A stretch of 37,381 bases of DNA from an uncultured Actinomycetes bacterium (lineage in GTDB: Bacteria > Actinomycetota > Actinomycetes > Nanopelagicales > Nanopelagicaceae): positions 1 through 37,381 of the forward strand of contig CAIXPV010000167.1 of NCBI GenBank assembly GCA_903921405.1. Reading direction: 5' to 3'. The position numbers and the translations under genes were made by a program. The notes below the pieces were generated by a model that was given only the letters and a program-made list of their open reading frames with translations, was not told the origin of the DNA and did not search any database. This document shows, piece after piece, positions 21,071 to 22,232 of the stretch (positions within the stretch are counted from its first letter, which is position 1; each line of letters starts with the position of its first letter).

Positions 21071-21076
21071 TAGATT
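21071..21076 (+). promoter_or_regulatory. Putative -10 element (TAGATT), 6 nt before the mIHF-Gmk ATG
   Basis: TAGATT-tagccc-ATG. Confidence 0.5.
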
Positions 21077-21082
21077 TAGCCC

Positions 21083-21955
21083 ATGGGAGCACCTCCGCAG
21101 TTAACACCGCAGCAGCGAGCGATGGCCCTAGATAAGGCCGCTCAATCACGAAAGCGTCGTGCCGAAGTAAAAAATAAGATAAAGAGTGGTGAGTTTTCTA
21201 TTGATACAGTTCTGGAGATTGCGGCTAATGAAGAAAGTGTTGGCAGAATGCGAGTTAGAGAGCTCTTAGAGGCTCTGTCTGGTGTTGGAAAAGTAAGGGC
21301 AACCTCGCTCATGGAGCGATTAAATATTTCACCTACGCGTAGGATTCAGGGCTTGGGTCGTCATCAATTAAAACAGTTACGACATGAGTTTATGAAATCT
21401 ACACATGCAGTTGAACCCGGCAAACTCTTAGTGCTTTCTGGTCCTGGGGGAGTTGGCAAAAGTACGGTAGCTAGTACGTTACGAGCATCTGGTGATTTTT
21501 GGGTGAGTGTTTCGGCGACAACTAGATCTCCTCGAGGCAATGAACACGACGGTGTCGATTACTTCTTTATTTCAGATGAGGAGTTTTCGCGAAGAATTAA
21601 AGATGATGAGTTTCTAGAGTGGGCGCAGTTTGCTGGAAGTCGCTATGGAACCCCACGATCTGCAGTAGAAGAGGCGCTCTTAAAGGGAAGAAATGTTCTG
21701 CTAGAGATTGAGATCGATGGAGCACGACAGGTTAAAGCCCATCTGCCGCAATCGCTCTTAGTGTTTTTAGAGCCCCCATCCTGGGAAGAGCTCGTCTCAA
21801 GATTAGAGGGTCGTGGAACTGATGGCCCAGAACGTAGAGCCGAGCGCCTGGCCCTTGCTCAGGAGGAGCTTGCAGCAGCCTCATTCTTCGATATCGTGAT
21901 CGTCAATGACCAGGTCGAACGGGTAGTACAACAACTGATAGGATTGATATCTTGA
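21083..21955 (+). CDS. gmk: Fusion protein: actinobacterial integration host factor (mIHF) N-terminus plus guanylate kinase C-terminus
   Basis: 290 aa single ORF. aa 1-103 resemble mIHF ('PQLTPQQRAMALDKAAQSRKRRAEVKNKIKSGE...RVRELLEALSGVGKVRATSLMERLNISPTRRIQGLGRHQLKQL'). aa ~110-290 are Gmk ('EPGKLLVLSGPGGVGKSTVASTL...VSATTRSPRGNEHDGVDYFFIS...LEIEIDGARQVK...RGTDGPERRAERLALAQEEL'). Confidence 0.9.
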   Translation: MGAPPQLTPQQRAMALDKAAQSRKRRAEVKNKIKSGEFSIDTVLEIAANEESVGRMRVRELLEALSGVGKVRATSLMERLNISPTRRIQGLGRHQLKQLRHEFMKSTHAVEPGKLLVLSGPGGVGKSTVASTLRASGDFWVSVSATTRSPRGNEHDGVDYFFISDEEFSRRIKDDEFLEWAQFAGSRYGTPRSAVEEALLKGRNVLLEIEIDGARQVKAHLPQSLLVFLEPPSWEELVSRLEGRGTDGPERRAERLALAQEELAAASFFDIVIVNDQVERVVQQLIGLIS

Positions 21956-21983: not shown

Positions 21984-22232
21984 ATGGATGGCATCACAAA
22001 TCCACCTATTGACGAACTTCTAGAGAAGAGTGGCTCCAAGTACAGCCTGGTTCTCTATGCTGCAAAGCGTGCTCGTCAGATCAACGCCTATTATTCACAA
22101 CTTGGCGAGGGACTTCTTGAATATGTCGGTCCGCTAGTTGAGACCCATGTTCATGAAAAGCCGCTATCAATCGCCCTTCGTGAGATTAATGAAGGTTTAT
22201 TAACGATCGAAAATCTCGAACCAACGGCTTAA
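21984..22232 (+). CDS. rpoZ: DNA-directed RNA polymerase omega subunit
   Basis: '[66 protein letters not shown]'. Confidence 0.96.

Follow-up and report, generated by a model that had tools for sequence, protein, structure and literature searches.

A nucleoid protein and a guanylate kinase encoded as one protein in freshwater Planktophila and other actinobacteria

In the tiny freshwater bacterium considered here, the nucleoid protein mIHF and guanylate kinase (Gmk) are fused, where normally there are two neighbouring genes, and the locus raises the question of whether the two are made as a single protein, how such a gene arose and what the joining may do. The window, by which we mean the whole stretch of 37,381 nucleotides that was analysed (contig CAIXPV010000167.1, assembly GCA_903921405.1), holds a single 290-aa frame without an internal stop, in which a complete actinobacterial IHF domain is followed by a complete guanylate kinase (Table 1). 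The models used were NF041260 and PF22525 for actinobacterial IHF and TIGR03263 and PF00625 for guanylate kinase. NCBIfam actino_IHF matched residues 5–103 at 123.1 bits against a cut-off of 60 (profile positions 3–101 of 102), and guanyl_kin (TIGR03263) matched residues 113–288 at 214.9 bits against a cut-off of 160.45 (positions 1–177 of 180). With the Pfam models, H2TH_5 covered residues 33–103 (85.9 versus a cut-off of 27) and Guanylate_kin covered residues 114–286 (151.3 versus 25.2). The description of IHF as a small protein of about 105 residues that stands alone does not fit here, since IHF domain and kinase share one frame; NCBI places the actino_IHF model in the class 'equivalog_domain', which allows for a domain inside a longer protein. 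The fusion gene is the sole match to either family in its 94%-complete genome, a draft of 193 contigs. Upstream of it lie the pyrimidine genes carB, pyrD and pyrF, and downstream rpoZ, coaBC, metK and priA.

Table 1. Coordinates of the fusion gene, its parts and adjoining features in the window.
Feature	Position	Strand	Evidence
mIHF-Gmk fusion gene, 290 aa + stop	21083..21955	+	open frame; both families above cut-offs; 40/40 genus genomes alike
N-terminal actinobacterial IHF (S13-like H2TH) domain, residues 1–103	21083..21391	+	actino_IHF 123 bits; sIHF/mIHF alignment; dN/dS about 0.04
Hinge/linker, residues 104–112, starting with internal Met104 (ATG 21392)	21392..21418	+	pLDDT 62; variable length and sequence among relatives
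C-terminal guanylate kinase domain, residues 113–290	21419..21952	+	guanyl_kin 215 bits; invariant motifs; M. tuberculosis Gmk match
Putative -10 box TAGATT, leaderless promoter of fusion	21071..21076	+	TAnnnT position recurring in related loci
rpoZ, next gene downstream	21984..22232	+	ORF list; position kept in 58/58 loci compared

Each of the 40 Planktophila genomes sampled, many of them single-contig, has the same open two-domain frame, and the junction was likewise open in the complete chromosomes of strain IMCC19121 (CP015605), Ca. Planktophila lacus (NZ_CP016769) and Ca. P. versatilis (NZ_CP016774). In the Planktophila loci that were inspected, the junction varied in length only by whole codons. 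Between close relatives compared in pairs, dN/dS was about 0.04 in the IHF part, 0.03 in the kinase and 0.07 in the linker, which are rough figures with synonymous sites near saturation; judged by these ratios, both halves are shown to be under purifying selection. A preliminary description of this DNA had claimed an uninterrupted 290-aa frame, a true gene fusion and an adjoining rpoZ, and each of these was borne out. Its statement that mIHF and gmk are adjacent but separate elsewhere agrees with most other actinobacteria sampled. As for a stop codon between the domains in relatives, which it had named as evidence that would speak against a fusion, none was found in the 40 Planktophila genomes, although more distant genera, described below, do contain one.

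In the kinase half, the P-loop GPGGVGKST occupies residues 120–128, and across 39 fused proteins the P-loop is invariant together with T146, T147, R148, R151, E154, Y160, E179, Y188, T190, E208, R240, R244 and R255; the roles of single motif residues of this kind are general knowledge of the guanylate kinase family. The predicted structure of this half has the guanylate kinase fold and matches 1z8f and 1znw at E about 1e-21. Because no other gmk match was found in the 94%-complete genome, the fusion is likely to have guanylate kinase activity, that is, to phosphorylate GMP. mIHF is known to bind and bend DNA non-specifically (PMC3724605), and full-length similarity together with purifying selection suggests that the IHF half does the same. 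AlphaFold predicted two confident domains (mean pLDDT 91.7) joined by a hinge block at residues 101–110 with a pLDDT of 62, and the overall pTM was 0.62; with this pTM and the low-confidence hinge, the model gives no defined packing of the two domains against each other.

The start of the fusion appears to carry its own promoter. Of 104 loci, 71 have a TAnnnT motif that ends exactly 6 nt ahead of the ATG of the fusion and 77 have one within 4–8 nt of it, compared with 11 expected from shuffling, a contrast that is overstated because the loci are related. The corresponding box in the window lies inside the pyrimidine/rpoZ gene cluster. Most starts in M. tuberculosis have a TANNNT -10 motif centred 7–12 bp upstream, and leaderless genes are numerous there (PMC3898074). 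Given that spacing and a motif 6 nt before the ATG, the fusion message is probably leaderless, beginning at the start codon itself.

Whether one protein or two are made turns on the junction. When 104 distinct fused frames were compared at the place from which a separate kinase might be translated, 59 lacked an ATG and 19 lacked ATG, GTG and TTG alike, so that in many fused relatives the fusion is the only form in which the kinase can be produced. The window does have such an ATG, Met104, at the exact end of the IHF family match; in the subclade to which the window belongs, 32 fused frames share it, and beyond this group few do. If translation began at Met104, or if the hinge were cut by proteolysis, free Gmk would exist beside the fusion and the two proteins would act largely apart. 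The position and retention of the codon are in keeping with this, as are the leader-poor starts that are common in this operon and the purine-rich, SD-like sequence ahead of Met104 in a few subclade members, which reaches -10.4 kcal/mol. On the other hand, the SD strength before this ATG in the window, -2.2 kcal/mol, is not strong when set against the mean of -2.8 for internal ATGs; no TAnnnT was found 4–8 nt upstream of it, nor before Met104 in any of the 32 relatives checked. The preliminary description had pointed to the lack of an SD and of a TAnnnT at this site, and both observations are correct, but little weight can be put on the missing SD: the starts of the fusion itself (-2.2 kcal/mol) and of coaBC (-0.5) are likewise without a strong SD, and the SD is thus a poor guide to starts in this operon. 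A minor internal product from Met104 may be made in the window's own subclade. That the two activities are largely separated in this way we consider unlikely, given the many fused relatives without a junction ATG and the 19 without any usable start, in which the kinase works as a fusion.

The distribution of the architecture was followed in 201 genomes of Nanopelagicaceae, in the stronger matches listed from a class-wide scan of 297 genomes, and in 80 genomes of family f31. Within Nanopelagicaceae the two genes are fused in genera g1–g5, g7–g9, g12, g14 and g16 and split in g6, g10, g11, g13, g15 and g17; an in-frame stop separates the IHF and Gmk parts in g15 and in part of g17. Among the matches listed from the class scan, fused frames occurred only in Nanopelagicaceae, family f31 and genus g89 of family f29, and none was found among the matches listed for about 136 genomes sampled from other classes of the phylum. 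Family f31 appears to be Microbacteriaceae, on the basis of a Microbacterium record, annotated 'guanylate kinase', that is 77% identical over 99% to an f31 protein, and of the neighbour-gene tree, where it lies beside Sediminivirga. The fusion was present in 77 of its 80 sampled genomes, and both family cut-offs were passed by five f31/f29 proteins as well as by L093, which groups with f31. A search of related genomes for the two-domain architecture, as the preliminary description had proposed, therefore found it in Nanopelagicaceae, in Microbacteriaceae and in g89.

Several loci in this sample deserve mention in their own right. A 927,303-base Microbacteriaceae genome carries the fusion (G479:C1:448331-449218) with a divergent IHF half that scores 57.8 bits, just below the family cut-off. 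In three other Microbacteriaceae genomes of 1.4–2.1 Mb (G475, G477 and G530; loci L236, L237 and L238), Gmk stands alone, and no convincing actino_IHF match was found elsewhere in these genomes; in L238 an Ala/Pro/Thr-rich stretch lies in frame ahead of the kinase. Five further actinomycetes (G253 and G398 of family f29, G303, G311 and G204) contain gmk, but the family model recognises actino_IHF clearly in none of them and gave not a single match in G253 and G398. It seems that this supposedly near-universal nucleoid protein has been lost several times. Some database records are unusual in other respects. The core genes gmk, rpoZ, metK and priA sit on a Microbacterium 'plasmid' record (L222; NZ_CP072877.1, 433717–446610), which is perhaps a mis-split chromosome; its pyrF is annotated in two parts, and two Fic-family genes separate gmk from rpoZ. 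Five MAG records whose titles name 'Streptomyces griseus' or 'Bifidobacterium breve' (L031, L049, L054, L072 and L075) have this locus, 65–93% identical to the window; the titles look like mislabels for freshwater actinobacteria. The DUF370 family includes the DNA-binding protein RemA. A DUF370 gene lies directly 5′ of gmk-rpoZ-priA in Pusillibacter faecalis of the Clostridia (L223, NZ_AP023421.1), in the slot that mIHF holds in actinobacteria.

To place the fused and unfused lineages, a FastTree tree was built from seven neighbouring genes, with ihf and gmk excluded. Unfused lineages separate three fused groups in this tree, and at least three independent fusions are therefore the simplest account. 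In the basal Nanopelagicaceae genera g6, g15, g10 and g13 the two genes are separate; for the genera branching above these, one fusion with later fission in g11 and g17 would explain the pattern about as well as three fusions. The fused proteins of genus g9 (L121 and L180) have a much longer linker, which in L121 contains a Met, as if an intergenic stretch including the old gmk start were read through, and they possibly reflect a separate fusion event. Fusion of six other neighbour pairs was never seen in the same set of loci, and on this ground we rejected the idea that fusion is a general habit of the operon.

We favour, at a probability of roughly 0.75, a stop-loss fusion of two essential genes of one operon, giving a bifunctional protein with a flexible hinge, fixed 1:1 production and a kinase tethered to the nucleoid. 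According to this proposal, the stop codon between adjacent mihF and gmk genes was lost, so that one gene would encode one protein. The N-terminal IHF domain would bind DNA, the C-terminal guanylate kinase would convert GMP and ATP to GDP and ADP, and a short flexible hinge would connect the two. A single, probably leaderless message would yield IHF and Gmk in a 1:1 ratio, the IHF half would carry the kinase on DNA and so place Gmk on the nucleoid, and each half would keep its ancestral job without strong cross-talk. By comparison with M. tuberculosis, the fixed 1:1 output would have to raise Gmk or lower IHF (PMC6155035). We infer both activities, the nucleoid location and the absence of allostery; the placement of Gmk on the nucleoid would follow from its attachment to a DNA-binding domain. 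When mihF was deleted in M. tuberculosis, gmk and rpoZ had to be supplied because of polar effects (PMC6155035), which indicates that mihF, gmk and rpoZ form one operon. The essential IHF of M. smegmatis still works when EGFP is attached to its C-terminal end (PMC10028186), showing that IHF tolerates a passenger of kinase-like size. Since the IHF-Gmk pair, alone among the neighbour pairs compared in the operon, was fused recurrently, the joining itself could have been selected, something that simple tethering explains only loosely.

That recurrence is one point in favour of a regulatory link between the halves, in which binding of GMP, ATP or ppGpp, or dimerisation of the kinase, would alter DNA binding or bridging by IHF, or DNA would alter the kinase. 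The same pair was fused at least three times independently and none of the six other neighbour pairs was; moreover, some bacterial guanylate kinases are dimeric and controlled by (p)ppGpp through the dimer interface (PMC6783271), and dimerisation would provide two DNA-binding arms. However, the linker, the least conserved part of the protein, differs freely among relatives in both its sequence and its length, AlphaFold gave no defined domain packing, Gmk occurs without IHF in three genomes of Microbacteriaceae, and some Nanopelagicaceae genera are split, all of which make coupling of this kind decidedly improbable. Allosteric influence of one half on the other is in fact unsupported, given the freely varying linkers and the three genomes with Gmk alone. 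The same observations, with the lack of a defined domain arrangement in the model, tell against the earlier suggestion that nucleoid binding responds to nucleotides. The fullest version of this idea, a nucleotide-sensing nucleoid protein in which the kinase half, on dimerising or when occupied by guanine nucleotides or (p)ppGpp, would alter DNA binding or bridging by IHF and in which this advantage would explain the three or more fusions, we regard as very doubtful. Finally, an assembly error or frameshift that wrongly joined two genes, which the preliminary description had listed as a danger at the junction and for which a fragmented draft of 193 contigs could speak, can be dismissed together with chance, because independent Planktophila genomes (40/40, many single-contig) and complete chromosomes share the open frame and dN/dS is low on both sides of the junction.

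We return, then, to a tethered bifunctional protein as the preferred reading. The recurrent fusion of this pair, and of none of the other pairs compared, offers a natural test of whether GTP synthesis gains from being located on DNA, for which the unfused sister genera serve as controls. The architecture is certainly already in databases under a kinase name, as one annotated record attests; there, the kinase-only name hides a nucleoid protein, and counts based on stand-alone genes would miss fused IHF. We found no paper describing an mIHF-Gmk fusion, and with subscription literature mostly out of reach the term 'undescribed' is provisional.

Compared with known systems, the IHF half matches Streptomyces sIHF (SCO1480, PDB 4itq) and mycobacterial mIHF (PDB 6tob) over their full length, through fusion residues 4–103 and 2–103, respectively, and belongs to the same family, but sIHF and mIHF are stand-alone proteins of about 105 residues with no kinase in the chain. 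The best structural match to the kinase half is M. tuberculosis Gmk (Rv1389, PDB 1znw and 1s4q), with 45% identity over about 180 residues; unlike the fusion, it is encoded by a separate gene with its own start and has no IHF domain. The gene order is that of the mycobacterial mihF-gmk-rpoZ operon, whereas in the mycobacterium-like genome of family f4 (L140) mihF and gmk are parted by a stop codon. The architecture itself recurs in the 'guanylate kinase' of about 300 aa in Microbacteriaceae (for example WP_223172673.1, Microbacterium sp.), which is also an IHF-Gmk protein but differs in its separate origin on the neighbour-gene tree, its more divergent IHF part and its annotation only as a guanylate kinase.
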